Positions 130 through 41,209 of a stretch of DNA of 64,000 bases are shown one piece after another; the stretch's first letter is position 1; the number at the start of each line of letters is the position of its first letter. Source of the DNA: Corbicula japonica (taxonomy: Eukaryota; Mollusca; Bivalvia; Venerida; Cyrenidae); contig JAZAYU010000008.1 in the NCBI GenBank assembly GCA_038501625.1, forward strand, positions 12,152,938-12,216,937, read 5' to 3'. The notes under the pieces were generated by a model, which did no database searches, was not told where the DNA came from, and saw only the letters and a list, made by a program, of their open reading frames with translations. The translations under genes and the position numbers were made by a program.

Positions 130-378
130 CTCTCCATTTTCCAGGGGATTGAGTTTGGAGAAATATGATGTACAGCGGACCTCATCGTCTCTGAGGTAGT
201 CATAGGAGGGTTTCTCTTCCTTGGAAGGCAGGTTGTACAATCTCTTACAGTCTTCATCAGTGATTGCAAAGTATTGCCAAGGCTTGTATGTTACACCATC
301 TAACGATTTCTCAAGGATCCAGTTCCCAGGGCGTGGAGCGTTTGCTGCCTTCACTACTACATAAGCAACTTGGTAAAT
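130..378 (-). CDS. Laminin subunit alpha (alpha-1/2 type), LN-domain exon 2; gene continues past window start
   Basis: This exon encodes 83 residues in phase 0-0. It follows acceptor TTTTATTTCAG at its high-coordinate end and stops before a GTACTG donor after GAG (a weak donor, but the family alignment breaks just there). The product begins IYQVAYVVVKAANAPRPGNW and goes on with the laminin alpha landmarks LEKSLDG, YKPWQYFAITDEDC (Cys44), DDEVRCTSYFSKLNPLENGE (Cys69). These match the second half of the laminin N-terminal domain of alpha-1/alpha-2 chains. LN domains drive polymerisation of laminin trimers into the basement-membrane network outside the cell. It joins 16446-16756 (ending TITLDLGL) across a 16-kb intron with no frame break. 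The rest of LN, the LE repeats, the coiled coil and the G domains must lie before position 1. Assignment to laminin alpha is secure; the exact paralogue is inferred. Confidence 0.93.
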
Positions 379-9838: not shown

Positions 9839-9839
9839 T

Positions 9840-13655: not shown

Positions 13656-13806
13656 TATATATATATGATGTAAATTGTATGTACAATGATGAGACTTAAA
13701 TAAAAGATGTTTAAAAAAAAACTATCTAACAAAATACTGTATTGAGAATATTAAATGAGTCACATTAGTTGGTTTATCAAAGGAAATCATGCATGGTACA
13801 GCAGAT

Positions 13807-13955: not shown

Positions 13956-13964
13956 CTGGATACA

Positions 13965-14056
13965 GCACTGATTACCTCCACATGTTGATAACAATATTAC
14001 AGTATTTTAATCATTACCTCCAAATGTTGATAACAATATTACAGTATTTTAATCAT
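13965..14056. repeat. ~44-bp tandem duplication
   Basis: Two adjacent copies of a segment containing ATTACCTCCAnATGTTGATAA and CAATATTACAGTATTTTAAT, differing at about one base. Confidence 0.85.
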
Positions 14057-14133
14057 TATCATTTATTGATCTTAATACTTAGTTATGAAATGTGATATCT
14101 ATAACAAGATAACAAGAAGATAAACAAACAGTC

Positions 14134-14270
14134 CTGGGACCAAGATCATAAAACTAAATCTGGAGACTAGTCTCAAATCTCAAGCATCTGATGCTGATCT
14201 GTCGTCATTTCAGCCAATCAGATGCTTGAGATTTGAGACTGGTCCCCAAACTTAGTTTTATGATATTCAA
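14134..14270. mobile_element. Palindromic MITE, family P, copy 3
   Basis: Arms contain AAGATCATAAAACTAA...GTCTCAAATCTCAAGCATCT and its inverse ending TTAGTTTTATGAT. More diverged at the tips than copy 2. Confidence 0.75.
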
Positions 14271-15255
14271 CCCTGTCGCTCAGATGGTCAATATGTGTGA
14301 AGGATCGAAAACCAACAAGAACCTCCACAATCATAATGTTACTGCGCCATTAAAAAAAACAAACCAAAAAAAACAATAAGAACAACAAAAATGTGAACAA
14401 AAAGACAGAATAGACTGACACTGAGTGAATATGAAAGTGACATTTTTGTTGTCCAAGGTGATTGTCAAAATATATTTCTGTATAAAAACACTATAAAAAC
14501 AATTTCTGTATCAAAACATTATAAAAACAATCTGCTGTAAACATTTCTTTTATTGCCACATTTTTGACAGTACCTGAGACAAAAGTGTGTGATGATAAAA
14601 ATAAGATAAAATCATTAAGAAAAAAAAGTTTCAAAACTTTCAAAAGCCCAGAGCTCAAATGTGTTACCCCCAATTAAACCCATTAACAAAATAACTAGTT
14701 TGAAGTCATTAAACTTCTGTCCATATGTTAAGGTGTTTGCACCTCAAAACAGAGATTCTTATCTCATGTCACATTATTTTGCCATAAAGTTGATTCTCTT
14801 TTCATACCGTAATGGCAAAAATTTCAAACTTTTGTATTTAGACAAAATCAGCAGGATATAAAAGCCAGCCATATGTGGTCATGGGGAAAATCTATGTTTG
14901 AGCGTTTGTTAAATTATAGGGAATACTGCAAACCTCTATAATAAGCATTAAGAAAGGTCATCAACCCAGAAAACCCTTTTGCTTTATATTTTTCAGTTTA
15001 TTGATGGTGCTGACCTTTCAACCTTTAACATCTTAGATACAATTTGATCTGAATGTACACTGTTTGCTTCTTGGTAATATGTAAACCAAGTTTCTAATAG
15101 AATGAATGTGCTTGCTTATCTGGATCTACACTGGTCGCCCATCTGATGAAAGCCTTATCCATCGAGTAAAACTTGAAAATGATTAGTTTTCATATGAAAC
15201 AATATAAATGCTCAAGATCCATATATTTATCTGGCCTCAGAACTTTGATACAAAT

Positions 15256-16445: not shown

Positions 16446-16756
16446 CAGTCCAAGATCCAGAGTGATGGTCACATAGTTGTACTCCCAGCCGTTGCTAATG
16501 GATGGGCTCTGCCACCATCGGTTACTTCCATCAATAGCATTGCTGATTGGGTGTGGTGCCCCTATTTCATCAAGTCGCCCAGAACCAGCACGGGCGTTAC
16601 AGTAGTCACAGTGTGTGATCTGTGGCATGAGATCCACGTGCTCCACGAGCTTACAGAAATATTCCGGTCTGTCGGTGCCACATGTGGCATTGGCAGTTAT
16701 CCGAGCTCGGGTGGCAAGATTCAAAATGTACGGAAACAAGCCTTGGTTCTGTTCAG
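16446..16756 (-). CDS. Laminin subunit alpha, LN-domain exon 1
   Basis: This exon follows acceptor TTTCTTTTTCAG and ends at donor CTG|GTAAAC. It enters in phase 1 (two bases complete a split Ala codon) and leaves in phase 0, giving 104 residues. The sequence begins AEQNQGLFPYILNLATRA and has NATCG (Cys26 with an N-glycosylation site), YFCKLVEHV (Cys35), HCDYC (Cys50, Cys53), HPISNAIDG, RWWQSPSI and YVTITLDLGL. This is the start of the laminin alpha-1/2 LN domain, in the order seen in vertebrate LAMA1/LAMA2. Between HCDYC and HPISNAIDG there are a few more residues than in the human chain. Its phase-1 start can accept either the Ig exon (22708-22998) or the signal-peptide exon (41140-41209) directly. 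Confidence 0.95.
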
Positions 16757-17821
16757 CTGAAAAAGAAACCGTAAAATGTTATCTGCATAACTATCACATT
16801 TTCTATCAGAATCATTTAGAGCTTTTTCAAACTTAAAATGAATCTTTTGTGAAACCTATGGTAATAAAAAAACATTCATGTACCACTACCAAACATATTG
16901 TTCCTTTTCCAGCCAATCTGGAACCAAATTCCTGCCCCTCTCAAATATTTAATGTTTTTGTTTGAACTCTATTTTGAAAAATTTTCAAACCATAAAAAAG
17001 GAAATAACTGACACTTTTGACCATTGAAAAAAATACTTTTATTTCTTTTAACCTTTGCTTTGGATGTAGTGTAACTTTTCCCAATTTTCACTTTTACAAT
17101 GTTATTTACCCCAGGATAAAGACAGCCATGTGGGCCCCATTCCCAAAGTACTGAAAAAAGAAACACCAAAAAGGCCATGTCTTTAACTTATTTTGTATTT
17201 TCAGCCTAACTGTGTCCTGGGAAATAAAAAGTACTTAAGTTAGCAGTTACAACTGAAATTTCTTAATATAATACAACTACAAACATGAAAAACACATAAA
17301 ACAACACAAATGAATCAAGTTATTTAATTAACACATTAAACACTGAACAAATAAATTACTTTAAAGGAAGTAACGAGATACAATTACAGTATAAATTAAA
17401 GGTTAGAAAAAATACATATGCATCCAATTTCATATAATGAATGGTTAGCAATTGACCCTATAGAAGTGTAGCTATTTAATTAATACTTTCTTTCAGTTTT
17501 GAGTTCTGTGGTCAGAAATCAGTGTCAAACCCAACAGGGTAGGTGATACAGAAATTGGGGTTAGCCACCTTTATTACAAATCCTGTTTAGCTGATACAGC
17601 ATCTTGAGGTATGACATTACAGCTCAGCTGTTTTGACAGACAGCCTGTTTGCTTTAAATGAGCCATCACAAAAGAAAACATGTTTTCACTACTCATCATT
17701 GGGGCTATTGCCAACTTGAGGTACAAGTTTCAGCTTTATAAACAGCTCGTCTTTTTTAACAGTTACGCTAGTGACCCATCAAGGCACTAGACAACTTTCG
17801 GGGACAGGTACCCATACCCTT

Positions 17822-17868
17822 ATCACACCCGTCAACCAGCAGAGCCAGGAGCGGACGGCACATCCAGG
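17822..17868. repeat. Left arm of a long-range inverted repeat
   Basis: CACACCCGTCAACCAGC then AGAGCCAGGAGCGGACGGC are found inverted at 20190-20240 (about 45 bp, few mismatches), 2.4 kb away. The spacing suggests the ends of a decayed transposon with the hAT-like element and a MITE inserted inside, but no target duplication was found. Confidence 0.6.
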
Positions 17869-18168
17869 CGCAGACACAGTAAGTTTTTTCATACTTGACA
17901 ATCATTTTCGCTAGTTTTGATTAACTCTTGGAAAGAAATATCGGCTGATTTTAAAAGCCAAATGAATTCTGCACATATCCGTTGATTTCTAAAGTGGTAG
18001 AAGGTATAATAAACATTTAATCGCGATTTAAATACGGAAGTTTGTGATGAAATCTTGAAGTTCTGCGTTTTATAGCAAAATGCTCCATAGATCTGAAAAT
18101 CTGCATAAATCTGTAAGCACTATTGGAAAATTTAATCATTCCCCTGGCAATATGTGAAATATTAGCAC

Positions 18169-18948
18169 CAGTGATGAGAATTGGACGGCTGAAGTGGAAT
18201 CGATTAATCGGTCCGATTCTGATACCTGTCCGATCTGATAAATCGGAAAGAATCGGAATCAGACGTACTGTAGTGTACATTTTGTACCAAAAGCACACCT
18301 GTCTCAATCATATTATTATAGGACTACTTTTATTATTTTAGTTTACAAGATTAATAACACAACTGCTTTTTGTACTGCATTGATATGTTCTGTTGTTTTT
18401 GTTCAGGCAATAAGAGCCTTCAAACTTTTTTTCAATTTCGAAGATGTGAACATTATTATTATTTAGCTCGTCAAAATTAAATCCGAAAATTATTCACAAT
18501 TCTAAAATGTGGGTGGGGTACCTTTGTTGCTGTAATAAGTCTTGAAGCATATTCTACAGGTAGCTTTGGATGTGTCGAGGTTTTCCTAATGGGCGCCAAA
18601 CCCTGACAGCCTGGTTTCATATAAAAACCAAAATATCGACATGCCTTTGATGTTGTATTACCAGGGCATTTGTAAAGTTGATTATTATTTCGATCACGGA
18701 CAGGCCAGGTATTCTCCATGTTTAAGAGCAGTTATATTTAAAAGTAACACAAAGACGATTAAAGCGCAAAAAGATATACACTGGACTGTCGCCGTGTCGG
18801 AGACAACAGTCAGTTGTCTTCAAAGTGGGGTTTACATATTTAAAGAATTAGCGACTAGAATCGATTCTTTGTAGTCAGAATCGATGTCGCCAACTTTGAA
18901 ACTTCAGCGACAATTACTCGATTATCGGCGACAATCGGAACATCACTA
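18169..18948. mobile_element. hAT-like MITE with perfect 8-bp target duplication
   Basis: The element runs from CAGTGATGAG to GGAACATCACTA. It is flanked on both sides by ATTAGCAC (18161-18168 and 18949-18956), an exact 8-bp duplication as made by hAT transposases. Termini are short inverted repeats (CAGTGATG and TAGTGATG) with AATCGG-rich sub-terminal sequence at both ends. No transposase domain is seen in the 780 bp. Confidence 0.85.
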
Positions 18949-19549
18949 ATTAGCACAAACAGACTTTTAACAAATTCGCAAGGGCTTAGTGAATTTAGCT
19001 GGGGTATAGAAATGGGCGGGTCCATAGAGCAGAAAGTGAATTTATTGGCGGGGACAGGAGCAGATATAATCCATACCTGTGAACCTTTATTCGTGCTCAG
19101 GTGAGAGATTGACTCCAAAAAAGTGGGAGATCAGGGTAAAAAAGTGGGAGAAGCATTGTTTTATGGTAAGTCATGGAATTTCTTTAGCTCTGGATAGTGA
19201 GAATATATTAAATTTACTCTTGTTCATGTTATCATTAATGTTTTTCTTGTCTGAGACCTCTAGTTTACAAACACTACCATATATAAAAAAATAATTTTTT
19301 TATAAATAAATAATTTATTTGACATAGACAATCGATAGCAAAAATATTAAAAAATCTCTATCTTACTCAGGATTGGGCAAGATTTCCAGGAAAGGGGTTG
19401 TTTGTGGCAGTCTTATGAGTTGATAAACATATAATGATTTCATACATTTTGGCCCAAGAAGTGGGGTCAATCAACTCCACTGACACCCCTCTAGATCCAT
19501 CCCTGTTAATAGTCACATCAAAAAATGTATTCGTTAGTGACTGTTACTG

Positions 19550-19791
19550 TTAACCCTTTCCTGTACAGATACACCTTTATTGCTAGGGCGAACAGTTTAG
19601 ATCCAGATCAGCCGGCACATCCGTCCCGTCTGATCAGGATCTTAACTGTTCGCTTTTTGATTCACTAGGTTATTTCTGACCAAAATGCGACCAGTGCAGA
19701 TCCTGATCAGACGGCACGGATGTGCCGGCTGATCTGGATCTACACTGGTCGCACATGCATAAAAATGCGTATATATCCAGGAAAGGGTTAA
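19550..19791. mobile_element. TTAA-flanked palindromic MITE (full copy)
   Basis: TTAACCCTTTCCTG ... CCAGGAAAGGGTTAA encloses two ~110-bp inverted arms, each with GATCCAGATCAGCCGGCACA and CTGATCAGGATC motifs. The TTAA duplication and the CCCTTT start fit a piggyBac-derived non-autonomous element. One of the cleanest copies in the window. Confidence 0.85.
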
Positions 19792-20189
19792 ACCTCTTCA
19801 AATATTACCTCTTCTGATAAAATCCGCTAATTTTGTAAGGTGAGAAAATCAATAATTGTTATCAAAACCTCAACCTGTCTGAAGTTCAAGGCCATGCATG
19901 ACATTTCATTGACTGGTAATCCATTTACGACTTCCTGTCATTCAAAAAGGCGCCAAAATACCGTAAACCAGTCTAATTTGTATTCTCGTGATGAAAGCAT
20001 GATCATAAGTGTGTTTAAATGGGGAGCTTTCATAAATGTTACATGGAAATGTCAAAAGCCGGGAGAAATAGCATAATATGTGGGAGGCAGGAGATTGGAC
20101 TTTAAAATCGGGAGTCTCCCGCCTAAGTCGGAAGGATTCACAGGTATGATAATCGAGTACGGAAAATAGTTTGATGTATTAGATTGCCG

Positions 20190-20245
20190 TGATGTGCCGT
20201 TCGCTCCTGGCTCTGCCAGTTGATGGGTGTGCTTATGAAAGGGGA
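20190..20245. repeat. Right arm of the 17822 inverted repeat
   Basis: GTGCCGTTCGCTCCTGGCTC and TGCCAGTTGATGGGTGTG match the minus strand of 17822-17868. Confidence 0.6.
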
Positions 20246-20557
20246 ATTCTGCACCGTTTCAGACAAAAAGACAAAAAAGGGGAATTTTATGTCATATATG
20301 CATGTTTTGACTTTGAAGTGTCACACACTCATAACACTGTTTTCTACCACTGATTATAATAGCTATGAAATTTTGTGACTTTAGAGTTACAAATAAACAA
20401 TTTATCAGCTATTTTCATGTTTGGGAGTCCCTTCCAATTTTTATAGATTTTTGAGGGGAATTTTTTTCTGAGATAGGGGAAAAATCATACTATTTGGATA
20501 GGGGAATGGGGCACATATTCGGCCCCAAAAATGGCCAAACAAGGGCCCTGCCCATAT

Positions 20558-20622
20558 AGGCCCAGATCAACCTGTGCGTATGCCCAGTCTGATCAGGATC
20601 TACACTGTTCACTTTTAATATT
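20558..20622. mobile_element. TTAA-type MITE fragment
   Basis: Only GGCCCAGATCAACCTGTGC and CAGTCTGATCAGGATCTACA of one arm remain. Confidence 0.55.
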
Positions 20623-21588
20623 GTTCTTGCAAGCAAAATCACTTTTGAATGACTAAATGATTAAAGTCAAAGAAAGATGACTCAGTAAGTTAAGGCTTTC
20701 TTTGAAGGAGCACCTTTGGACAACAAAATCTGTTGTTTTATTTGTTTCAGGGTGGGATACAAGATGTCTAGAAAAGGGATTTGTTTGGGTTGTCTTACAA
20801 TAGTTGAATGATAATTTTAACCTTCAGGCTGAAATTCCCATAAAAATACATGCCCAAAAAAGGCATGTGGATACACCCACTGAACCCATTTGAATCTGCC
20901 ACTGTGTTGTATGTTATGTAGTCTTCACTTATAGCAAACCAATACAACAATAAGCTTCAAAGGATCATTTAAGAGCCAACATTAACCTGGTCTACCATTT
21001 TATTGATATTGGTAATTAAGTCAAAGAGGTATGTTCCATAAAACATGGAAAACTGGACATAAAGAGAATGGAATATAATACAGGAACAAACCTTAAAACA
21101 GATAAAAAGAATGAGTGAAATGTTTTGCACACTGTAAATTTGAAAATACAGCAATATTTTCCATGACTTTGTACCATGCCACCAGTTAATGAACAGCCAC
21201 ACCATGCTTAAGGGTGTGATTGTATTGAAAGGAGATCAAAGGTTCAACAGTTACTGTAGGGATATAGTTGGATCCTTGGTGAAGAAGAAATATTCTTAAT
21301 GGTAACTCTAAACTCCAAACTTTCGAACACAGTAAATTGTGGCTTGATTGGTATGCTAATGAGGACATGACAGAAACAAAATATCACTCAGCCGACAAAT
21401 CAAAGTCCACTCACTGACTTGCCTCTGGATTCACTGAAAGAGTCTCCAGATAAACATTTGGATCTAAGGCAGAATACAATCTACCTATGTATATTGTATT
21501 ATCAGTATTAAGTTTATAATCATGTTTATTAAACTTTGTTAAATATAAGGTGCTTTAAAAGAACTGTGAATAAAAATCATTGTTCATT

Positions 21589-21811
21589 TTAACCCTTTTC
21601 TCCATGTGAAAAAAGTGTAGATCCTGATCAGTCAGCACATTTGTGACATCTGATCAGGATCTACACTGTTTGTTTTTAGAGTTATTAGGTTATTTCTGAC
21701 CAAGAGGCAAACAGTGTAGATCCTTTTCAGACCACACAGATGTGCCTGCTGATCTGGATCTAAATTGCTTGCCCATGCAATAAAAGGTGTACCTATGGAG
21801 TAAAGGGTTGA
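21589..21811. mobile_element. TTAA-type palindromic MITE
   Basis: TTAACCCTTTTCTCCATG ... TATGGAGTAAAGGGTTGA, with the inner motif GGTTATTTCTGACCAAGAGG and both GATCAG arms. The right TTAA has mutated to TTGA. Confidence 0.8.
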
Positions 21812-22707
21812 CTAAAAGTTTATTTAATTAATTATACTCATGCTTGTTTATTTGTTTATTAATAAACATAACATTACATTATAAAAATACCAATATAACA
21901 TAGTAACAATAGACAGTGACTTTTCTGGTGATGATACCTATGCAGTATAAGAATTTCCAAAATGCATCTATAATGAAAGAGGGGTCCGAGTGTTTTCTGA
22001 TAATAACCACCCTTGGATAATGAGCACCCTTGGAAACTCTTCTGATGGCATTGTGGTATCTGCACCAGACCTTGTCAGTTTACTAGGTGTGAAGAAAATA
22101 ACTGTGCAATTACATTGCAAAAATTAAGTTTTTAACCCACTGTATCTTACCAGTAAATATTGCAAGCTCATCTATGAAAAAATGTTAAAATAAAACAGGA
22201 GTTTATCAAAACCTCATAAACAAATAAAACATAAAAACGATTACAATTTGCACTGTTCTTATCTAAAAGATTAAGGAAATATATCATATCAAGCCATGCT
22301 GGGATAATAATGCATAAATGCAAGAAAAAAAGGTAATAAAATTAGATAAATGCAGATGAGGAACTAATTACTAGCATCTGTAGAATTGTTAATACACCAT
22401 GGTTCCAGACACATGGAAGTGGTGAAGATTTAGACCTGGAACCATGTAGTGTGCATGCCCTAAACTTGATAAGACAGTCTCATGGTTGTTCATATATTTC
22501 AATCATGATTATCTATCAAAATAAAACTTAAAATCTCTTTGGGGTAACACTGGTGCATAATAATCAACTGAGAGATCTTTAACCTATTTTATTATCTTAC
22601 AAATATCAAACTACCAAAAAATTGTCTGACACACCTTAAAAAATAACTTTAGTGAACTGTAGAGTTAAGTAACATGAATTGAGTCAACTTGAATAAAAGA
22701 TACTAAC

Positions 22708-22998
22708 CCTGTGTTTTAACATCCACGTTTATATCACGTATTACTCTAGAACCTATTTTACATCTATATATGCCACTGTCCGACTTCCGTATACTTTCTA
22801 TCTGTAAGTTATAATATCCATTGCCATGGTCACCAGTTACAGAAAACCTTGACCTTTGATCTGCTGAAAGGTCAGGGCTGACAGTGAGTCCTTTAGAGTA
22901 TTGTGTGAAATCGGGTGGGCCCTGCCATATTACTGGTAATCGATCTGAAGGTTTCGGACAGGTCAAGGTCACAGATTCTCCTTCATTTACCTCTAAAC
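22708..22998 (-). CDS. Immunoglobulin-domain exon of the laminin alpha gene
   Basis: This exon lies between acceptor CTGTTTTTCAG and donor CAGG|GTTAGT. It is phase 1-1, 291 bases, 97 residues. It starts GLEVNEGESVTLTCPKPSDR and has the Ig-fold landmarks: Cys14 in VTLTC, Trp25 in VIWQ, RFSVTGDHGNGYYNLQI, and DSGIYRC (Asp74, Tyr78, Cys80). The 66-residue Cys spacing and strand pattern suggest a V-set or I-set domain like those of nephrin or Kirre-type cell-adhesion proteins. Frame and phase join it to the upstream signal peptide (41140) and the downstream LN exon (16446), giving signal - Ig - LN. The exon is symmetric, so it can be skipped without breaking the frame. The Ig assignment is firm; membership of the laminin transcript is inferred from strand, position and matching phases. 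Confidence 0.88.
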
Positions 22999-25079
22999 CT
23001 GAAAAACAGAAGAGCAAAATAGTCAGTTTTCAAGAAAGCATTTTTTCATATTCTGGAATGCATGACCTATTTCAATTACAATGTTTTACTTCAAAATCCT
23101 TTCAAACCAAACACAACATGTGACTTTAAATAAAGTCAAGCGGTAGAGTAATACAAGAAAAATTCTGAAATTAAAAAAAAACTCTTGAAAAAATTGTTTA
23201 GTACAACTGTGTCCTTGACCTTGAACAGAGGATTTCATGGAAATAAAACTACCAAGCTTTAAGCAAGAGCAAAAATTACAAAACAGTTTGTGAAGTAATT
23301 AAAATTTAAGTCTTTCCACTCAGGATTGAACCTCATACCATTCTACATGTAACTTAAGCAAGTGTATAATAAAATTATTATTGTTTATATCTGATTTGTT
23401 TTCTGTGGTTGTGCGTGGGGGTAAAGCATACGAATATAACATGGGAAATACCAATATGGAGGTAAGAATTTAGCCATTTTGGACATTATAGCACATTAGA
23501 ATACATAACTAGTTAGATCTTCATGTGTTAAAACTCGTAACTTTATTCAATTAAAATGGACAACAACTGCATACACTTTTTATAAAGACACTGGCACTAG
23601 CTGTTTTGAAAATCCTAATTTATGCTCAATTTACAATAAACTTCTACAAGATAAATAAATTCTTTAATTGATTGCCAATTATTTCTTCTTCAAACTAAAT
23701 GAATGCAGTTCAACTGAAAGCAATCATTAAGAACATGTATTGGTAATTCATGGAGAAGGTAATAATGCTAACGACATGATTTTCCAACTAAGCACACCTG
23801 CTTTAACTTCAAAGTCTATTTGTTTTCTATCTAAACTTGAATAAATCAGTGATAAGGTTAAAATTACCTTCTCTCTAACCCGATAGTACCATAAATTACT
23901 TCTAATTCAAACAAGCTAACAATTTTCCTATTAAGTACATGGAGAATTTGTATACAATGATAGAAGACCATGGGGGTCTTCAAATACAATTATACTGCTT
24001 CAAACATCATAATGAAACAATGCCAATTATATGATAACCAATTCAACATAATCTATGACAAATAAATGGAATTGCGTTTGATGACTATGCATGCTGGTAT
24101 TTTATTTACTGAATTATACTTCAAATGTAATACTTGAACATGAAGATATCTTGAAATAAATACGAATTCAAAATATAATTTTTTTAGTCAATTTCATTAT
24201 TATAATTCAGCCATTTTTAGAAGATATAACTGTATACAATGTTTATCAATGACATCAGTTTAGTTGAGCCATAATTGTTATTTTGATATACTTTTTACTT
24301 TCTTATGCAATTGATAATACTTAATTTGTTGGATTCTAATATCTTTTCATTTTCATAAATAACAACATAACTTCAAAATAAGTTCTGAAATACAAATTGA
24401 TGGCACATTTTTGCATGCAAATACCAAATACCTTGAAGTTTACAGTATTTTTATATCTCATAACAATAGATTTGGTACAATATGAGATCTTTAAACTAAA
24501 CTTGCTAGAGCTCAACAAAATGTGATTAATGTAAGCAATACAAATCTTCAAGTCTTTATGTCATTACGACTGAGCAAACAGTTCTCATTTCACTAACATA
24601 TGACTTAAAGCTTTTTCACGTTATAGATTATGACTTGGAGACTATAAATTAATATTCATATGATTTTATCATAAACACATCATGCTCACTACATGTAAAA
24701 AAATATAAATAGATCTTTCAAGTTTGTAACTACATCTTAGGTTTACATTTATCAATGCATGCTGATTTAAATTTTAACCACCACAGTTTTTCTCAAATAT
24801 AAAGTTATAACCATAAACAAAATTAATGTTGTTTAATGAAAATAAGTCTCTAAAATACCAAGTGCTGGTCCTAGTTTACAGTAAAAACTCAAGAGACTGA
24901 TGATTATTATACTGTTAGTCTTCCAAAAAATATTAGTCCGGATATCTTTGTAATTTACTGTAACAAATATAGGAAATGCTTTAATAGGGTTATATTTAAT
25001 AACTGAAATGTCTACAAACATGAGTATTGCGGAGAACAATTGATCTGAGAAAAACATAATAGCTTAATGATAAAAAGCA

Positions 25080-25620
25080 AACACAACACAAGAGCATCAG
25101 TGAAAAAAGCAATATCACCCCTGAAGACAAAAACAAGAGCATTGAAGGAAAACACAAAAGCATATTTGAAGGTAAATACAGGAAAACACAAGAACACCAT
25201 TGAAGGCAAACACAAGAACACAATTGAAAGTAAACACAAGAGCATCAATACAGGAGAACACAAGAGCACCATTGAAGGTAAATACAAGGGCATTGGTAAA
25301 GGCAAACACAAGAGCATCACTGAAGGCAAACACAAGAACATCACTGAAGGTAAATACAAGAACACAACTGAAGGTAAACACAAGAGCACCATTGAAGGTA
25401 AATACAAGGGCACTGGTAAAGGCAAACACAAGAGCACCATTAAAGGCAAACACAAGAACATCACTGAAGGCAAATACAAGAACACAACTGAAGGTAAACA
25501 CAAGAGCAACATTGAAGGCAACTACAACTGCATCATTTAAGGTAAGCACAACATCACCATTAAGAATAATACAAGAGAACCATTAAAGGCAAATACAAGA
25601 GTACAACAGAAGGTAAATAC
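25080..25620. repeat. 30-bp minisatellite, ~18 units, open in several frames
   Basis: Units of 30 bases alternate variants such as AACACAAGAGCACCATTGAA, GGTAAATAC and GGCAAACAC. Because 30 is divisible by 3 and the units have no stops, two plus-strand frames and two minus-strand frames stay open for 128-169 codons. The plus-strand translation repeats a Lys-rich decamer (KSTIEGKYKG and variants). No start context, splice sites or homology support a protein. It sits in laminin intron 1 and is best read as non-coding satellite. Confidence 0.85.
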
Positions 25621-27690
25621 AAGACCACCATGTGGGTCAAACTCAAGAGCAGGGTTGAAAGTGCATAGGGAAATTTGTGCTCCTGTATAAGCACAATGCT
25701 TTGCCAGAATAACTTGATGTAGACAAGTATCTCCGATGCATCTCATAGTAGAGAGAAATTTATGCTACCTATCAGCTAAGTATTTCAACTGCTATTATCT
25801 TACAGTCAGTTTTTGTCCTTAAATCCCTTACCTTTAATCACATTTATGAAATATTTCACACTTTTGCTATGTTGCTGATAAGACAAAAATTATTTGACAA
25901 CTCATGCTGGGGTCACTCTGATGAAAGTAGTTCAACTCAGCCTAAATGTTTCTTTATCTCAGCAAAACATGTTTAGCTGAAAAACAAACACAAGAATGAT
26001 ATCTTGAACATCATTTTCAAGTGACAGATGAACTTTTTTTTACTGTCATAATGTTTTATGGGACGGTGATTAATGGATCAACTTAAAAACCTTTCATAAC
26101 TAAAATTGTAATAAATGCATCAAAAATATGTCAATCTTTGCTAAAATAAGCCTTTTGGTGTTCATTGTTGTTTAATTGTGTTCACTGAATGTTGAATAAA
26201 GTTTGTTTAAAAGCTAGTACAGTTTTGGGGAGCTGCAATGATTGATTTATAAATCTTTTACACACCTTTTTCACACTTCATTCAGTACCAGGATTTGATA
26301 GACTATTAGGGGTCTTATATAGGCAAATATCCAAAATTTCCAGGTCTTAAACAGTCAGACTGAATTCTTAATGCTCATTTGATCGCATGCGAGCAAATTG
26401 TTAATTGAAATCTATGTGAGAAACATTATTTTTATATATAAAAATGCTATTATTTTGTCCCTTTTTAAATCCAGTGACCCAGTTACATTGTCCCTAATAG
26501 GGGATGTATGTGTAAGTCTCCATTGTTTGGAGTCTTTTTTTAATAAATCAGCCCCCACAGAGAAGCTATAAAAAGGTTCAAATATCTGTAAAATTTATCA
26601 TCCTCATCTAATTTCATACTCATTCAAGCCAAGAAATATATAACACTTCAGATCTTTTCAATTTATATTTTCTCTGCCTTTCATGTACTTTGAATAATAA
26701 TTGAGTTGTTATCAGCTGGAATCTAGAAATCTGACTATATTGACTATCACATCTGTTTTTGGTGTCAGTAGCCCATGGAAGATCAAGAAAAGTATAACAT
26801 ATACATGTACAAGAAAAACCAAAAAATATCCATACTGATATTTAAACTAACGCTTTAATTACTTCCACCACTTACTGTTCCCCAAACGAATGAACAAAAG
26901 TAAATGGGAGCAGAATAATCAGAGGAGCAAATGGAGAGCTTGATTCACAGAGTATGGAGCATTCTAAATCTAATCAAAGTGCAAAATAAATACATTGTAA
27001 TCAAACTGTACAAGGTGACAAGTAGTGTCATGTTCTGAAGAAAAGGTAAACTATGCATTATATATGAGTGAAACTGGAGAAATTGTCAAATTCATACGTT
27101 TTCCAACAGTAAGGACCTCACATTGCTCGAATAAGTGAACTCAAACTTTCTTTGAGATGCTGATGTAGTTCACACTAGTTGATTAAACATTAATACATTT
27201 CAACCATTTATATAAAAATCAGACAAACAGTTTTTGAGGCACTGAACACAGATTTTTAAGTTTTAACTTTAATACAATTTTACTGTTGTTTTAATCATTT
27301 TAGAAAATTCTTTTGCAAAACAACACATTTTATAGTTATTATAAGGAGTTGATTAATTCTTAATTCATCCACATCCCGAGTTTCCGATTCAGTTTTGTAC
27401 TGATTAACTGATTAATTACTTTTTAAATGAAAATGAGGTGTGATATGTAATATACAATTTTTGTGGGCAGGTTATTCAACAAAAGGTTACCATGGTTCCC
27501 CAATTAATAAGGGAGCACCTAGCCATAATATGGAGGACCAATCACAGATTACTCTAGCAGGCAGGACGGAAAGGTCCATAGTGTAGGGCAAGCCATCAGT
27601 AAGGAACTTAACAAATGGTTAATCCACTTAATCTAATTGATCTCACCAAAATGATTGTTAACAAAATTATAAGGTTTAAATTAGAATTTC

Positions 27691-29738: not shown

Positions 29739-30161
29739 TAGCTTCAAGAAATAACATTACAAGTGTGTAAAATATACTTTATGTCAGCTACTCCTTATTG
29801 TTAAGTGAAAAATGAGAACAAAATTAATTTTCTTTGCCTGACACCTTTAATACTTTGAATAGTTCTATTTGATAAATAGGTCACTAGGATTTCAGAATTT
29901 AATTTGATAAATGAGGTATATTATCATTATATCTAAGGTATTTTACAGCAGCTGTGCTAGAGGTTACAACTAATTGAAAAAGACTTATGAAAAATGTCAG
30001 AACTTTTGTTTATTAGACTGTTAAAAAATTATCATTCAAATTTTGGTTTGAAATTTAAACCATTAAACCCTTTAATATTTTTAAGTACTGATTTAATGTA
30101 ACAGACACAATTTAGGACAGTACCCATAGGGACTTGCCTAAAAATGTATTAAAAGAATTTG

Positions 30162-30403
30162 TTAAGCCTTTACTCCACGAGATGTGGCCGTTATCTAATG
30201 GTGAACAGTGTAGATTCAGATCAGCTGGCACATCAGCACCAATTGATTAAGATCTCCACTTTTCACTTTTTATTCAATTCATTAGTACTGACCAAAAAGC
30301 AACGATTGTAGATACAGATCAGATGGCACAAATGTTCCAGCTGATTTGGATGGTTAATGGCCCCACATGGGATAAAATCCTTAAATATGGAGTGAAGGGT
30401 TAA
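30162..30403. mobile_element. TTAA-type palindromic MITE
   Basis: TTAAGCCTTTACTCCACG ... ATATGGAGTGAAGGGTTAA with degraded GATCAG arms and a central TTATTCAATTCATTAGTACT. Confidence 0.75.
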
Positions 30404-30842
30404 CTTAATAGGGATAAGTGTGAACACCAATCGGTCCACATGACTGCACCAACTGATTCAGGTCTACTGTGTTCGCAGATCTGACAAATGTTGTTTTTTG
30501 CACTTAAATGGCCTACAGGAGAAAATAATTGTAGTCTATATGCCAACAACATAAAACTAAACTAAATTGTGATGAATGAACAAAAATGCTTTAATGCCAA
30601 AATTTAATGTTCTGTCACTAGATGATTTCATTTTACTGAATTATGTTTAGTTCTTAAATTTCATTTTTAAAATGATGAAAAAGGGGACCTAAAACAAACT
30701 ACATCATGCCCTCCAATATCAACTACATTATTTGCAGATTGATGTCTACAATTTAAACTTAATTTTAGTATAATTCTTAATTAGCATCATATCTCAAGTA
30801 AATGAAACCTTATTTAAACACAAGTAACTAGACAATGATTAT

Positions 30843-30974
30843 CAATTCATGATCACAAACTGGTCAGACAGCCAGTCAGTCTCCGTCAATTCATGATCAC
30901 AAACTGGTCAGACAGCCAGTCAGTCTCTGTCAATTCATGATCACAAACTGGTCAGACAGCCAGTCAGTCTCCCT
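30843..30974. repeat. 44-bp tandem repeat, three near-identical copies
   Basis: CAATTCATGATCACAAACTG then GTCAGACAGCCAGTCAGTCT is repeated three times, with differences only at the last few bases of each unit. The low divergence means a recent expansion. Confidence 0.95.
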
Positions 30975-32891
30975 ATTAAAATACTGGGCCAATTTTCATA
31001 ATTACTACTGCATCATTCATATATAGTAGATTTTCAATGTATCACTTAAAAACTAAACTATGCAGTCAAATATACTGAGAATATGCAAAATGTGAATGAT
31101 CAGGGTCTAAACTGATCTTGTTCTGCTCTGGTCAAAAGTTTAGCTCTGAAAGCTTAACAGCAGGTTTCATAACACCATTATTTTAAGAAGTTTTATTATA
31201 ATGAGTTGCACATTTATTGAAGGATCCAAACATTTTGAGACTTGTATCAACTTTGGTTATTACAAGGTTTATTCGTAAAGTTTGTGAACATCATTTTATG
31301 TCTGATTGGTTTACTGAAATGCACTGAAAATGATAACAAATTTTAAAACAACTTTAGAACATCACCACTTCAAAAAAATTAATTTGTAACAAATAGGACT
31401 TTATTGTAATTTTAATTGTAAATTTAATGTATGTAAAAGGAAAACTATTCTCTTCATAAATCACTTCAACAAATGGTTAGCTTCACACAGGGCCAATAAC
31501 AACATTTCTCTCTCATACATATTTAAAGAACATTTCTTAATAAGTTAATATTTCAAGGCAAAGAAGATAATTAATTGTTGACAGTAAACAATTAACTAGG
31601 TAAACAAATTATGCCTTGTAAAATTAGTCTGTGTCCCATCTCAATCAGATTTGCTTTCTGCTGTCTCAAAGGCCTGGTCTAATGCTAGTAGTGAGCATGT
31701 TTCCCCATTCCACCCATCCCACGCCTCATCCCTTCAAAGATTCAAAAGAGAAATGTGGAGGCAGTAGGATGAAATCACACATCTTTCATTAAATGATACT
31801 TGTAACGGGTTAAGAAACTGAAAACATTTTTGCCTAAAATTCCTTTTTGATTATAACAATAATGACCACCAATATTTAGAAGGGGTATTTTCCACAACTA
31901 CAAGACTTAGTATAGCTGATTACTCACAGTAGGGCTTTTATTCCTTCTTTAATAGGGGCTGTAACAGGCGCCTTCCCCTCAAAAATGACTTTAAAATCAT
32001 GCTCTTTTCTCCAAAAGGTAACTTTACACCAGGCTTTTCATTACCCTTTAGAGACATAATCTTGCCATTTTCCCCAAAATTATAGGGCATTGGCCCCTTC
32101 CCTGGGCAGTGAAAAAAAAACCCTGTACTAAAAGTAAAGGGCTCTCATTTACATTTTCTCTTTTCTCAAATATTGACTTTTTTCTTTCTCCCCTTCACTG
32201 TATGTTTATTCAAAACAAAATAAATACAAAATGTATATTTTAGTGTTTCCAATGTAAACATGAATTTGTTTAGCCAGTAACCATTATCTTATAACATTAC
32301 TTAAACCTGTACATCAAGTAACTCAAATAGTGTTATAATCCTCTCTATTGACAACTGTAATTGTAGGCTGAAAACAATATAGATTGCAATAAATCACCTT
32401 GCTTCACACCTCTGGTGGCGAAATTACAGCAATGAAAGTGAAACCACAGTAGAAATTTCTGTAACACCTTTACCAGATTTAGAAAGATATTTATAAATGT
32501 ATACTAATTCCTCATCAAAGTCGGCAATATCCTTAATCATAAGTCGTTGAACCAAAATGTCAAAAGTTATCAATTTCATCTGATTATTCAGATTAATAAT
32601 GTTTAAACATAATAGAAGAGTTTAAAATTATGCAAGCAATCAAAAAAATACAATGTGTTGTTAAGTACCACTATAAAAGACAGGAGGGTAAGAGGATTTC
32701 GGATTACAGACCCAAATAGAAGGTGCCTATTCAAACAGATTTGAATACTGTCCAGTTCTTTATTTCTGCCACCTGATGGAATTGTCCATTCCTTTAAAGT
32801 CAATTAATTATAAGCTGCTAATTGCAATCATAATTTTTTCTCTTTGTTTTGCGTTTGTCTTTTATCTGCGCTAATGTAGATAAAAACTTTC

Positions 32892-33134
32892 TTAACCCTT
32901 TCCTCCATATATACGCATTTTTACACATGTGCAACCAGTGTAGATCCAGATCAGCAGGTACATCCATGCTGTCTGATCAGGATCTGCACTGTTAGCTTTT
33001 TGATTTGTTAGGTTATTTCCGACCAAAATGCAACCAGTGCAGATCCTGATTAGACGGCACAGATGTACCTGCTGATCTGGATCTACACTGGTTGCACATG
33101 TGTAAAAATGCGTATATATGGAGGAAAGGGTTAA
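32892..33134. mobile_element. TTAA-type palindromic MITE (best-preserved copy)
   Basis: TTAACCCTTTCCTCCATATA mirrors TATATGGAGGAAAGGGTTAA at the other end. The arms continue as CGCATTTTTACACATGTGCA, GTGTAGATCCAGATCAGC and so on, with few mismatches over ~110 bp each. Flanking TTAA intact on both sides. Confidence 0.9.
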
Positions 33135-33994
33135 GACAAAACAAAAACCTGCTAATCATAACACTTGAAAAAAGAACCTTTTCAAAAGTAGAACTGAGGA
33201 AATCTTTAAATTGCATTTAACAAAGAACAGCATGAGAGTTTTATTCTAATAATTACATTTAACTACTTTGTTCAAATTAAATTCTAAAATATATGCTCTC
33301 TAAACACAAACATTAGTATGTTTTTGTAAAAACAATTATTATAATATTCTGAAGAGTTTTTCTGACACCTCTTAGAGTAAGATACCTATACTGGTACATA
33401 TACATGTAAATTTTGTATATTGTTCAATTTAGTCTACATGAAATCCAGCATTTGAAAACATACCCGAAATTACATCATGGACCAGTAGAAGCATAAAACA
33501 GTTGCTCTATCACTCTGTGGCTTCCTAGAAATCTGGTAAGGTGTTTATCAGGTAATTAGGTGGAAATTAACCATTACATCAGTGTGAGGTGCTTAAACTG
33601 GCCGTACCTGGCTGAACCCAGCATCTTCTGCTACACCACAACACAATCATCCCTACAGGAGCATTATAAAATCAGAAACTTCAAAGCCTAACATTTATTA
33701 TGGTATCCTGTTCATGAAATATTAAGTACCGCATTTATTTATATATAATGTAAGATTTATGCATGGTCGGGGATGATAAAAGAAGCTTGTGTTACAGTTA
33801 AGTTTGTTGAAAAGATCTTTCTATGCATTCAGAAGTTTTCATTTTTCTTTCTATCAGATGTTTTCATTTTAAACATTCAGAGTTTTCATTTTCATTTCTA
33901 TGTTTTCTGTTTTCATTTTTCTTTCTAATTCCAAAAGAATTTCCAAAGTTTTCATTATTATTTTAATGCATTCAGACATTTTCTTGTTTGTTTT

Positions 33995-34205
33995 TTAACA
34001 CATGTACCATTGTAGATCCAGATCAGCCAGCACATCTGTTCCATCTGATCAGGATCTGCACTGGTCACATTTTGGTCAGAAATAACCTAAGGCATAAAAA
34101 AGCAAACAGTGCAGATCCTGATCAGATGGCACAGAAATGCCAGCTGATCTGGATCTACACTCTTCGCCCACACAATAAATGTGTGCCTATGGAGGAAAGG
34201 GTTAA
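33995..34205. mobile_element. TTAA-type MITE, shortened left end
   Basis: TTAACACATGTACCATTG ... TATGGAGGAAAGGGTTAA. The left CCCTTT tip is gone, while the GATCAG arms and the GGTCAGAAATAACCTAAGG centre remain. Confidence 0.8.
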
Positions 34206-34334
34206 ATATGCACTCTTACTCTTTTTATACATTCAGAACTATTATTATTTTTCTCTCTAAGCTTTATGAGTGTGAAAGCTGGTTCTAGGAAAGATGACTG
34301 CCTACATTTATGTGGTAAAGACAGCTGCGTTCTT

Positions 34335-34584
34335 TTAACCCTTTCCTCCATAGACACACCATGGGCGAACAGTTTAGATCCAGATCAGATGGCAATCAGC
34401 TGGCACATCCATGCCATCTGATCAGGATCTAAACTGTTCCCTTTTTTATTCATTAAGTTATTTCTGACCAAAATGCGACCAGTGCAGATCCTGATCAGAT
34501 GGAACAGATGTGCTGGCTGATCTGGATCTACACTGGTCACACATGCACATGCTTAAAATGTGTATATATGGAGGAAAGGGTTAG
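34335..34584. mobile_element. TTAA-type palindromic MITE
   Basis: TTAACCCTTTCCTCCATAGA ... TATGGAGGAAAGGGTTAG. The left arm carries a small internal duplication (GATCAGATGGCAATCAGCTG). Confidence 0.85.
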
Positions 34585-36243
34585 TGTAAGAAAGATGGGT
34601 GACTTTCAGTTACAATATGTGGTAAAGATATGAAAATGGTGTATGTCTTCATTTTTACATGGTAAATATTATGTCTACCTTAATTTAACAGGGAAATATT
34701 TGTGGCATTATTTCATGAAGTAAAGAATGGATTTCTTCTATTTATGTGTAAAGATGCCTCAGTTTCATTTGCATGATGCTGTCATCATTTCATATGAGAA
34801 TGATCTATCTTTATTTCATTTTAACTTAATTACAGAGTTCATGGGGTAAGATGGCAGTCCTATTTCATGTGGGAAGATAGATGCCTCCATTTTATTTGTG
34901 AAAGATACCCACCTTTATTTCATGTAGAAAATGTTAATTTTGGAAAGATTTCTGGCTTCCTTTCATTTAGGAAAATACTTTCATTTCAGTCATCTTTATT
35001 TGAAGTGAAGCAGAAAAGATCATTTTGGAAAGATGTATGCATCTGTTTCATTTTGAGGAAAATGTCTGCCAAATTTAATGCATGTTTAAAAAAGCTTATT
35101 ATTTAGTTAGGGTAAGCAGAAAAGGTAAGTAATTTACACCAGAAACAGTAACTAAGTAAGTTCCCTAATTTTCATAATATGAGGAATTGAAGGCACTATC
35201 AATTTCAGTGAGACAAAACATCTTAACACGAAAAGCAAATAGTCAAATGTATATGAAAAATAAATAATCTGTATTATACATATATGTCAAAACAGAATTA
35301 GATCTGCCCACTGACTGGTACAGCATTACTGTAGAACCATCAATACTGTGCTGGGAGTCTTGACTGATAACATCATTTGTTTCAATGGCTATGTCAAATT
35401 TATCAATTAAGAATAGCAGGTTGCTGTTTCAGACAATTAGTGCTGATTCTGTAAGATAAGCCATGACTGATTACTGCTGAGTGATGAAGTACTTTATCTT
35501 CCATGTCTAGATAATTCCTCTGGTAAAAAAACATTTTGGGTAGACTGTTCTAACTGGAAGAGATAATCTTTTGCATTTGTCAATTACTATAGGTTATCCT
35601 TAAAAATACTTTAGTTGGCAGTAACCTGACTGTCTCATCATAATAGATCAGAATCATTTATTTTTACACTTTGTTGTTTTTGTTTCTTTACACTTCACAA
35701 TTATAGAAGTAAACAAAACCCCTATCTAACGAACATTAAAAATTCTGGGAATGGCAAAGTTACTAGAAAACTAAAAATTTATCAAGGCTAGCCTTATGTT
35801 AATGATGCAACTAGAACAATTGCAAATAGGTTAAGGGTCCAATTGCAACTTCCAGAAAAAAATAGTTCTGGAAAAACCTGTCTGCACAAGTCCTACAATG
35901 CCTAAATATCTAGGTTTCAGTTTAAACTAGCCTCTCCAATCACAGTACTTTCAAATCAAGTAACTATAATGTAAAGTCCTGTTCTTATCAGCTGGTATCT
36001 AAATCAGTTAATTTTGTCTATTAAATATTGCGTAATGGTTAGAAGTCACACTCTGATACTACTATGATACCATTATGTAAATTAGTCCACAGGTTACAAA
36101 AGCGGCATCTCAAAAGTTCCATAAAGTTTAATAAATTTGATAAAATTATATGATAAACTCCATGGAAACATAGGTATGACATTTCAAGTTTAGTGACAGT
36201 TATACAAGAATCCCAATGACTATATAACTATCAACTTGTTAAA

Positions 36244-36474
36244 TTAACCCTTTACACCAGGGGATACGGCTGTTACCTTATCGGCAAACCATGTAGATCC
36301 AGATCTACCAGTACATTCACTTTCGTTTACTTTTAGATTGAAAAAAATATTTCTAACCAAGAAAAGGCCAGTGTAGATCCAAGTCAGATGGGGCAGATGT
36401 GCCAGCTGATCTAGATCTACACTCGGGTGGCACACATGATGAAACACATAATTATATATGGAGTAAAGGGTTAA
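36244..36474. mobile_element. TTAA-type palindromic MITE
   Basis: TTAACCCTTTACACCAGG ... ATATGGAGTAAAGGGTTAA with GTAGATCCAGATCTACC and GCTGATCTAGATCTACAC. Confidence 0.8.
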
Positions 36475-37905
36475 TAATAATTTTATATGTTCAGACTGGT
36501 TAATGTAAGTTAACACTTAAAAAGTATGTCAGGTTTGCAAACTTCTACACCAGCCACAGTCAAATAGGTTTAATTATATTCATGCACCTTTACAATCTCC
36601 AATCATTGCAATCAAAAAACACCTTTAGGAATGTCATTATCAGACCCCTGACTTCAATTAAAGCATAATTTGAAGCAATTTGCAAAACAGCAAAAATATC
36701 CAAAAGCAACTTCAATTTGCATTTTAATGATCCAGGCATAGGTTTGCTTGCTTAAAGGTGTATATTCAGAATACGATTGTAACTTTTATTTTCATTAAAA
36801 CTTTCAACTTAGTTTAAAATTTTACTATTGCATAGTATACAAATTCTCTGTGACTAAATTACTAAAACACTCATTTACTCATTGATAGAGCTTGCATATA
36901 TAACCCATTCTTTTGCAAGAAACATTATATTATTAGAGTCTTTAAGCGTCTTGAAGACCTGTCACTATATGCGACCTCTCCCTAAAGCAGGCATTGAGAT
37001 TGACATCGGTAAAAGTCAAAATTCCAAATCTTTCTTCCGTTACACTTTCAAAAGAAATGTATTGAAGTTGATTTCTTGGGGAAATGACAACAGATAACTT
37101 AGATCATGTAACTAAAATCCAAAACATCTGATTGGCTGAAATGGAGACCAGTCTCCATTTGTTTTGATTAGAGATCCAATTTAAAAGTTTTAAATTAATT
37201 TCAAATTGGTATTTCTGACCAATCTGACAAGATTTCTGAGTAAAAGTTTAAGATTTCACTGCACATGAAAGGCAGATTATCTGGTTGTATGTTCAAGTAA
37301 AAAACTCCAGAAAACATGTGAACTAATTCTCAATTTTTTGTTTTACTGTGAATTATGCAAAATCAGAACTCCATAGTGACATTTATAAGTTCAACATTTA
37401 TTGATGAGACTAGAGTTATTGTTTTAATGAACAACAGTGATCATCCACCTTTAAAGATAACACTTAAACATTTAAATTAAAAATTCAACCAAAAAACTTC
37501 TTCAGAAAGATGCATGTCTAGTCTAAACAGAAAAGATAAGTGAGGATGAAGATAAACATGGAGATTAGGTGATAAATAAATTGATCAAGATGGCCCAGAC
37601 TGCAACCTCTGTATCATATCTCTGCTTTCCCAGTCAGCTAATATTGACATTTCTATGACACCTTCTCCTTTATTTACTGTATCTGCAACATATAATAAAA
37701 TATGTGATCCTTGCTAATTAACTGTCTGGATTTGAATTCCTTGTGGAACCAATTCTGTTGTGAGTGGAATTGACAAACCAAATCACTGCAGATACCTCAC
37801 TTTTACATCAAATTCACATACATGTACAGTAACACCTCAATTTAAAATGGGAAATAAATATTATTTTTATCAATGTAACTAGTGCAACATTGAACAGAAA
37901 AATGC

Positions 37906-38136
37906 TTAACTGTAATCCATGGATACAGCTTTAATATCCCATGTGTGACTATTGTAGATCCAAATCATGCCAGTGGTTTGAACATGATCTACACTGTTGC
38001 TTTTAGATTTATTATGTTAAATCTGATAATAAGCATGAGGTGTCAGTTTGGCCAGATTGCTATGATGTGCAGGCGGATCTGGAGCTTTAATGTTTTCTCA
38101 AATGATATAAGCTTTATTTCAAAAGTAAAGGATTAA
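37906..38136. mobile_element. Degraded TTAA-type MITE
   Basis: Recognisable from TTGTAGATCCAAATCATG, GATCTACACTGTTGC and AGTAAAGGATTAA; the arms are heavily diverged. Confidence 0.6.
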
Positions 38137-41100
38137 GTAAGACTTAAAGTGTGGGTCCAAAAAGAGCAAAGACAGGATGGGGTGTCCAAAACCCAGAAAG
38201 AAACTCAGAAAGCTATCAACAGCAATTTAAGAGTAAAATAATAACATTGTGAAAAGGTGATGACTACTTCAGAACAAATTTAAAGCTGTTTCAAGATGAT
38301 GTGACTTTACAGTTACTTGTTTTCTAATTGATAGAGGTGAGAAGGTCCAAGCTGCAGCAAAATTTACTCTGCTCCTTTATCATTCAGTAACCTGTGCAAC
38401 AGGTCTACATGTATCTTGAATAATTCATTCACACATACATGTGAAATAATTAAATTATCATATTCTTCACATTTTTATTTCATGCTGAAATAAAGTTACT
38501 AAGATATTGAAGGAAAGGACAAAACCTACATGTACGGCAAGGTTTATGTTTTATGCATGTATTAAAGTGAGAGATATGGCGATAGAGGAATGTTGAAGGA
38601 AAGTTTAACAACAAACATATTCTTTGGGTTAATATGTATCTGACCGCTTCAAACACCAACTTTATATTCTGAAATGCTATCAACCAAAAGTAAATAGTTT
38701 AATGGTGCATACAAATCACTTCATTTTACAAACATTTTTGGCTGTATATACAGTTCAATATAGTGTACTATAAAATATTTTCAACCCTTTGTGACAGGAA
38801 ACTAACTGAATGAAAGCATTAACCCCACACACTGAATGAAGAAAATGAATGTTCTTTATTTTATCAACCATATACAATTTACCCATAAAAGTCATCAAAG
38901 GTTGTCAAACAATATGAAATATGAAGTTGAAGATTTCTGCTTGGCAGACATTTTGATAGTGGTCAATGGACATGTTTATGGAATTTAAACATTGAACCCA
39001 CCCACAGGGAGTTACAGTATTAAAATAAGAGATACTTAAATACTTCTCTGTAGTAACCTAGGTCTTCACTAAAAAAAAATCTTAGTGCAATAAAAAATGC
39101 TCTTTTGAATAATGAAAAAAAAAAATGTATACATGTATGTAAAAATAAAAGTGATTTAATGGGCATTATTTTACTTAAAATAGGTAATATCTTAGATGAA
39201 TATTAATGTAATCAGAAAATATATCTTTAAGATGTTAAAGAAATGAAAACAAAATAATAAAAATAATAACAATAACAATTGTTTTTAGCTACACATTTTG
39301 TTTTTAAAGCACAATTTTAGCATTGCACAACATTTATTTTTGTGAAATTGAATGTCCTAGAAAGGCACTGGCTAACAAAAGATATCATTTGGGGTTTATA
39401 ATTGTATGTTGCGAAATACCATGTTACTGGTACCATTGTTTTAAAGACATACATTCAGGGGCAGTTCCAGAGGGGGTGTATTGAGGTTGCTCAAACTCCT
39501 TTTTGGGCAGCAATATTTAATTTTCATTGGAAATTTGGGAAGTTGGAAATTATATTTCTAACCCCACTGCTTCAAAAGGAATCCCCTCTGGAAATCTTGC
39601 ATCCGACCCTGAACTTTTTACAAAGATTTTCCTATCTCTTAAAATGACCAACATCACAGTTAAGATTATAAAAATAAAATGAATGGGAAAGCAGACAAAA
39701 TTGTAAGTGGGTCATAACAAATATTCATTATAGACCTTATCTTGGATTTTATAGGTTAAAAGATATATTAGAACAACGATCAATGAAATCAAACTTCATT
39801 CAGCGCATTTTTCCATTCAAAATAATTCAGCAGTACTTGATCAGCTGTTGAACTAGCAAATGTAATGTAAAAGGCTTTCTCTGTCTGAATTTTATACTTG
39901 AAATCTTGTTACCTCATAAATATCGTATATCCCACAAGATCTATATCTTTTTATTGCTCTCTCTGTTGTATAAGAAAATACATATGATCGGAAAGTTAAA
40001 CGATTTCTGAAACATGGAAATACTAAAGACAATATCTACTGTATACCTTTACATTTTAATGATTTTAAATTATTTATGCAACATTTATTTTGTAAAGTTT
40101 AGACTATGTTTAATTTGATTCTGAAGTAACAATTTGAATTTCTTGTTTTAATAAGATTTGAGGCTATTTTTATTCTATAGGTTATTTCACTAATTAAACA
40201 TGATTTGAAGCATGAGGACAGTTACTATTTAACTTTTTTTTAAATCAAATTGTTTGTTTGGCTATGAGGGTTATTATAAAAAAAGTCCACATGTTACTTC
40301 ATGTATAGATAATAGTTCATGTTGGATACAAAAATCTGTTCCACACGCACAAAATTACATGAAAGCATTATTATTATTATTACTTCAAATTCAGTATTGT
40401 GGTTTTACATTATTAATGATTAAGGTTGGTTAACACTGTTATACAATATCAGGTCAGACATAAACATAGCAGGTTTCAATAAATCTCTCCTCAAATTTGC
40501 TAAAGTATTATCTGGCAAATAGAAATGCCCCACTTTCTAACCATGTCACATTCTCAACAACTTGATTATGAATTTTTAAAGCAGTATACTCATTTATACA
40601 TTTGTGTGTTGATGCACTTCAAATGGGATGAATCAGCATGTCTGATATATTACAGTCTTAAATATGCAATGTGTAAATATAAATCTTACATAATATACCA
40701 CCTGCAGTCAACATAATAGCCGTAACGAAATAAAATATATTGCAGACGAATCTTATTTCAAGATACAAAAAATTGCACATTTGGCCTTATAAAATCTGTT
40801 AAATACTTTTCAGTATTTAATTGTTAAACAGGCTTTTTTTATGGAAGGCATTAAATGTATCTTGGTTAATACATGTTTGACGTACAATTAAAACTAATAA
40901 AACTGTATCAGCGTCAGCTAGAAATAGAATATTAATTAATAAATCTGCCAAGTTTATCTATAATAATCTTATAGTCGAACTATAAATATGAATAACATTG
41001 TTAATTTTACCATATTTTTTTAAATCTGAAAACCTGTCTATTATTTTTTTAATTTAGCGATGATGATGATGATGCGCGACCTCCTCACAGAAATGCTCAC

Positions 41101-41139
41101 AAGTGTCGTCTGTACTGCTAATTGGCACCTGCGACTTAC

Positions 41140-41209
41140 CTGTAATTAGTAAAGGTAAAATTCCCACTAAAGTAAATATCAACATATTTTGCAACCACTT
41201 AAACTCCAT
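41140..41209 (-). CDS. Laminin alpha start exon: signal peptide
   Basis: The start codon is at 41209-41207. The exon encodes 23 residues (MEFKWLQNMLIFTLVGILPL then LIT) plus one base of a Gly or Ala codon, and ends at donor ACAG|GTAAGT (phase 1). A Lys near the start followed by a ~15-residue hydrophobic run is a typical secretory signal peptide, with cleavage expected just after the exon. The phase-1 donor matches the phase-1 acceptors of the Ig exon at 22998 and the LN exon at 16756. No other ATG-initiated secretory exon in the right phase was seen upstream of the LN exons. Three short upstream ORFs precede it (see 41199-41244). Being the first exon of the laminin gene is inferred from phase, strand and position. 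Confidence 0.8.

Follow-up and report, generated by a model that had tools for sequence, protein, structure and literature searches.

The DNA analyzed here (the window) is a stretch of 64,000 nucleotides (nt) of the Corbicula japonica genome, contig JAZAYU010000008.1. Its minus strand harbors the beginning of a laminin alpha gene, almost certainly a single gene in which a V-set immunoglobulin (Ig) domain lies between the signal peptide and the laminin N-terminal (LN) domain. The gene extends past base 1 of the window; its coding parts recognized in the window, in the order of the minus strand, are as follows:

41140..41209, minus strand: coding part of the signal-peptide exon, encoding MEFKWLQNMLIFTLVGILPLLIT+G, with the ATG at 41209 and a phase-1 donor
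22708..22998, minus strand: single V-set Ig exon of 291 nt, phase 1-1
16446..16756, minus strand: LN exon 1 (LN1), the first half of the LN domain, 311 nt, phase-1 acceptor and phase-0 donor
130..378, minus strand: LN exon 2 (LN2), phase 0-0, LN continued through PLENGE

The borders of the first three exons (marked by a slash) are the donor TTACAG/gtaagt of the signal-peptide exon, the acceptor ctgtttttcag/G and the donor CACAGG/gttagt of the Ig exon, and the acceptor tttctttttcag/C and the donor GGACTG/gtaaac of LN1, which starts with the linker A-E-Q-N-Q. The introns flanking the Ig exon measure 18 and 6 kb. Joined together, the four exons amount to 921 nt, i.e., 307 codons with zero stops. 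The initial annotation of this DNA had placed the signal-peptide, Ig and LN1 exons at the same coordinates, and this placement was borne out by the fitting splice sites and the open phase-1 junctions; LN2, which it did not include, prolongs the LN domain.

In the joined protein, Pfam recognizes Laminin_N (E 2.4e-43) and V-set (E 3e-9, 37.5 bits vs. the cut-off of 26), and the Ig exon possesses the hallmarks of an Ig (Cys-Cys, Trp, DxGxYxC). The predicted fold is V-type, nearest to antibody variable domains; hence, the “adhesion-type Ig” of the initial annotation stands as an Ig, but its class is better described as V-set. The identity to known V-set domains (polymeric Ig receptor, antibody variable domains) is about 20%, and the host protein is a basement-membrane laminin, not an immune receptor; the V-type fold shared with immune domains implies no common function. 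A GDSL-lipase match to the Ig (NCBIfam), scoring 18 bits vs. a cut-off of 300, was regarded as chance. With its 96 residues, the Ig separates the signal peptide from LN, a departure from the canonical short arm, where LN directly follows the signal peptide; this arrangement is usual, but not defining, for laminins.

Three-frame Pfam scans (E up to 1) revealed this exon as the sole Ig match on the minus strand at 15001–60000 and returned zero matches on the plus strand at 15001–45000. A nested or neighboring Ig gene was therefore rejected, since these scans yielded only the Ig, LN1 and a receptor-type tyrosine phosphatase. At 1–15000 of the minus strand, scanned in two of the three frames, LN2 was found along with a weak PI3K_rbd match, which was below the cut-off and regarded as chance. 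A simple scan for an ATG, a hydrophobic stretch and a strong phase-1 donor gave the putative signal-peptide exon at 41140 as the single candidate in 23000–53500 of the minus strand.

The same architecture is present in deposited proteins of other bivalves. The protein searches required shared five-residue words and a length window, so the absence of a taxon from their results means little. The search with the LN1 exon among long proteins yielded 67 matches among 116 candidates, headed by two proteins named “laminin subunit alpha-2-like”, from Mercenaria mercenaria (92% identity) and Mya arenaria (85%), along with a partial protein of Dreissena polymorpha (81%); a four-sequence alignment used as the query gave 114 matches among 7,993 candidates scored. 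The only match of the Ig exon among 103 candidates was the Mercenaria laminin, 80% identical across the whole Ig; the effect of the search filter is evident here, since Mercenaria alone was returned, although Mya has the domain. Such a similar Ig at the same place in the Mercenaria laminin alpha excludes chance. Both the Mercenaria (P0002) and the Mya (P0003) proteins, which represent orthologue candidates, read signal peptide–Ig–LN, with the joins matching those of the window at the protein level. The signal peptide of P0002 starts with MEFKW and ends with LITG, as in the window (52% over 23 residues), which connects the Ig with the exon at 41 kb; for P0003, the corresponding figure is 48%. 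In Mactra antiquata (P0070), the Ig is combined with LN1, and the Dreissena model P0004, truncated at its start, comprises Ig and LN, beginning inside the Ig with unrelated residues before it. Between the window and its relatives, the identity of the Ig is 59–80%, and that of the window LN to the LN of the other carriers is 82–89%.

A further protein, P0069 (403 residues, from a 1,358-nt contig), reads signal peptide–Ig–LN in one frame; its source should be spliced RNA or else a gene lacking these introns. Its residues 401–403 are V-S-R where Mercenaria continues, which fits read-through of a gtaagt donor; the contig may carry a retained intron, like LaNt alpha31, a vertebrate short form with a retained intron. 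In P0110, the longest contig of which is 6,132 nt, the Ig stands alone, and the residues flanking it seem to fit intron read-through at both of the same borders. In Dreissena polymorpha, the model P0071 contains two near-identical tandem Igs, the first cut at its start, with the junction VKTQ-GLDINEG as expected from a duplicated phase-1-1 exon; the doubling could be real or stem from a doubled assembly. The short model P0089 of the same species contains the LN1 exon twice, a local duplication or an assembly fault.

Overall, the proposal of one gene encoding signal peptide, Ig and LN is supported by the Mercenaria and Mya proteins, by Mactra, by one Dreissena model and by the 1,358-nt contig. 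The Ig exon is unlikely to be part of another gene, since the proteins of the relatives carry the same parts and joins.

A hidden Markov model (HMM) of the Ig, built from seven copies (the window and six proteins), matched 7 of the 181 fetched proteins, namely its six sources, by construction, and P0004. The other 174 proteins (from Mytilus, gastropods, Lingula, vertebrates, arthropods and others) gave no match to this HMM. Among the proteins whose LN match begins at the start of LN, the Ig is present in 5 of 149. All the named carriers, Mercenaria and Mactra (Venerida) along with Mya and Dreissena (Myida), belong to Neoheterodontei. No Ig was found in the protein of Mytilus galloprovincialis, the only named pteriomorph and the sole basis for the absence of the domain in other bivalves, nor in those of Batillaria, Physella, Littorina, Nucella, Lymnaea, Biomphalaria, Gigantopelta, Haliotis, Bulinus and Patella, all of which we take to be gastropods. 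The Ig-less named molluscs have at most about 65 residues ahead of LN, too short for this Ig, and some of these models look cut at the start (e.g., Biomphalaria P0012).

In the LN tree (IQ-TREE, 26 rows, with no beta, gamma or alpha5 rows and with Mactra excluded for having LN1 only), the five carriers, i.e., the window, Mercenaria, Mya, Dreissena P0004 and P0069, form one clade (100/100, one change), with Mercenaria as the row nearest to the window by path. Three vertebrate alpha3 rows separate at 100/100, and the window groups with the alpha-1/2 type rows. We infer a single gain of the Ig in the line ancestral to Venerida and Myida, with retention ever since. As for its source, the matches among PDB sequences are broadly V-set and indicate no donor.

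For the full-length proteins of Mercenaria and Mya, V-set scores 24.6 and 21.2 bits, respectively, both under the Pfam cut-off. Hence, the Ig has been overlooked by standard annotation, and the precomputed domain lists of both laminins show no Ig. Literature searches aimed at this architecture, with most subscription journals outside their coverage, found no description of a laminin whose N-terminus carries an Ig. The initial statement that no such laminin was known is consistent with these searches, although databases already contained such sequences, e.g., under the name “laminin subunit alpha-2-like”.

The neighborhood of the laminin gene includes another gene upstream of it on the same strand:

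About 57239–57367, 55480–55606, 54541–54701 and 53893–54031, minus strand: four exons of a receptor-type tyrosine phosphatase

The best-scoring solved structure for it is PTPRA. In humans, LAMA1 and LAMA2 adjoin PTPRM and PTPRK, and laminin and phosphatase may represent an ancient gene pair. The phosphatase ectodomain, considered as a source of the Ig by copying, was not found within the window. Several kinds of repeats were also observed: repeats of ~168 nt at 62191–63772, open in one frame of the minus strand (LTYMHNFRRSFL...); short repeats at 25012–25586 in the intron between the signal peptide and the Ig, with several frames open on both strands (KHKNTIEGKHKS... on the plus strand); and dispersed copies with VDPDQ and LIRI in translation (e.g., 32892–33155, 33967–34260 and 45802–46046), which probably belong to a dispersed mobile element.

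The domain order of laminins is regarded as deeply conserved, and polymerization through a bare LN counts among the major steps in the assembly of basement membranes. The LN of the window is 61% identical to that of mammalian laminin alpha1 (P0082) over 175 aligned residues, and its likeness to the LAMA1/LAMA2 type extends to the residues of the polymer node; a difference is the V-set Ig added ahead of LN. In Mercenaria P0002, LN is followed by the LE, L4, coiled-coil and LG series. LaNt alpha31 and netrin-4, LN-domain proteins altering laminin networks, likewise represent a changed LN setting at the node; these are short, separate proteins, whereas the protein considered here is, to judge from P0002, an intact laminin alpha chain.

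For the alpha1-beta1-gamma1 node resolved by cryo-electron microscopy, two contact sets have been described, one formed by the beta1-beta2 loops and the other by the beta7-beta8 loops of a subunit, which face the N-terminal region and an LE1 loop of its neighbor; changes of alpha1 Y128, E203 and R263 are reported to break the trimer (PMC9852560). With the alpha1 numbering aligned to P0082 through five residues, Y128 and E203 are conserved in the window, R263 lying beyond its edge, and all three are conserved in P0002, P0003, P0004 and P0069. The tether between the last Ig strand and the LN N-terminus is five residues long (AEQNQ).

Since the residues needed for the trimer are kept, the chain is most likely still capable of polymerization. 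It would be secreted as Ig-LN-LE..., join beta and gamma chains as usual and retain polymerization through LN. Because of the short tether and the location of the LN N-terminus within the inter-subunit contact set, the Ig would be placed at the rim of every three-way node, one per node. There, it might give the node a new binding face, directed to a neighboring LN or LE1 domain or to a cell-surface or matrix ligand, and the node itself would thereby become an adhesion or regulatory site. As a whole, this explanation is slightly favored by us as the best one. A polymerization-competent laminin with a functional Ig mounted at the node is about as likely as not. The further claim that the laminin nodes of neoheterodonts carry an Ig which either participates in the node or recruits a specific partner, the network joint itself thus being altered, would go beyond this and is put forward tentatively.

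Several observations weigh against this explanation. The proteins of the relatives are mostly gene predictions, and the Dreissena models conflict with each other (P0004 with Ig and LN, P0071 with two Igs without LN, P0089 with LN1 copies without Ig). The inclusion of the Ig exon in C. japonica could be partial, or conceivably the exon could be skipped in all transcripts. The joint Ig-LN model is middling (mean pLDDT 78, pTM 0.63), and no Ig-LN orientation is claimed. In comparison with the LAMA1/LAMA2 type, the alpha-gamma contact loop (K58–Q72 of alpha1) lacks one residue in five carriers and two in Mactra, and the loop after it has five additional residues in five of the six carriers and two fewer in Dreissena; hence, the node geometry may differ, the node perhaps being somewhat reshaped. 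Finally, the Ig diverges faster than LN, which is not predicted by a tightly packed structural role.

The same features can be read in other ways. Lying over the N-terminal contact surface of LN, the Ig might serve as a brake lowering the node affinity until proteolysis or ligand binding, thereby timing or limiting basement-membrane assembly; the five-residue tether to an N-terminus which itself belongs to the node contact set and the changed contact loops of the carrier clade would accord with such a role. Still, an LN under a cap could more readily lose the alpha1-node residues; their conservation in the carriers speaks against a plain cap, as does the high identity of the window LN to that of the other carriers, and this role seems unlikely. 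The initial annotation had suggested such a cap, a redirected polymerization or an added ligand as possible roles. If, on the contrary, the Ig were a folded spacer without a specific partner, harmless and hence kept, its faster divergence and the lack of a known partner would be expected, but the frame, both cysteines, the tryptophan and the DSGxYxC motif are intact in seven complete aligned copies, and the named carriers cover two orders, so a mere passenger is quite improbable.

Alternative splicing of the symmetric Ig exon, giving Ig-plus and Ig-minus chains by tissue or stage, could occur alongside any of the other readings. With its 291 nt and phase 1-1, the exon can be skipped with the frame remaining open from the signal peptide directly to LN1, and the designation of the Mercenaria record as isoform X2 implies that isoforms of some kind exist. 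At the same time, the Ig is part of the deposited Mya model, whose name carries no isoform label, and of all three neoheterodont matches of the LN1 search; such an optional cassette is possible but doubtful. It is very improbable that the Ig exon is a relic or a part of another gene and that the fusions in the databases are prediction errors: the long introns, the mostly predicted nature of the relatives and the Dreissena models P0071 and P0089 lacking the fusion could be taken in this sense, but the Ig is fused to LN in Mercenaria, Mya, Mactra and Dreissena P0004, the 1,358-nt contig is one frame, the signal peptides match, and Pfam found no further coding exon on either strand in the interval from the signal peptide to LN1.

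The case shows that domain annotation can overlook a change of architecture, the Ig falling just below the Pfam cut-off in two full-length clam laminins. An Ig situated five residues from the LN contact represents a natural experiment on the tolerance of the node to a fused domain, on the partner of the Ig and on new functions of the node. If the proposed working of the Ig at the node is true, this clade would have changed a joint of the basement membrane otherwise taken as fixed across animals.
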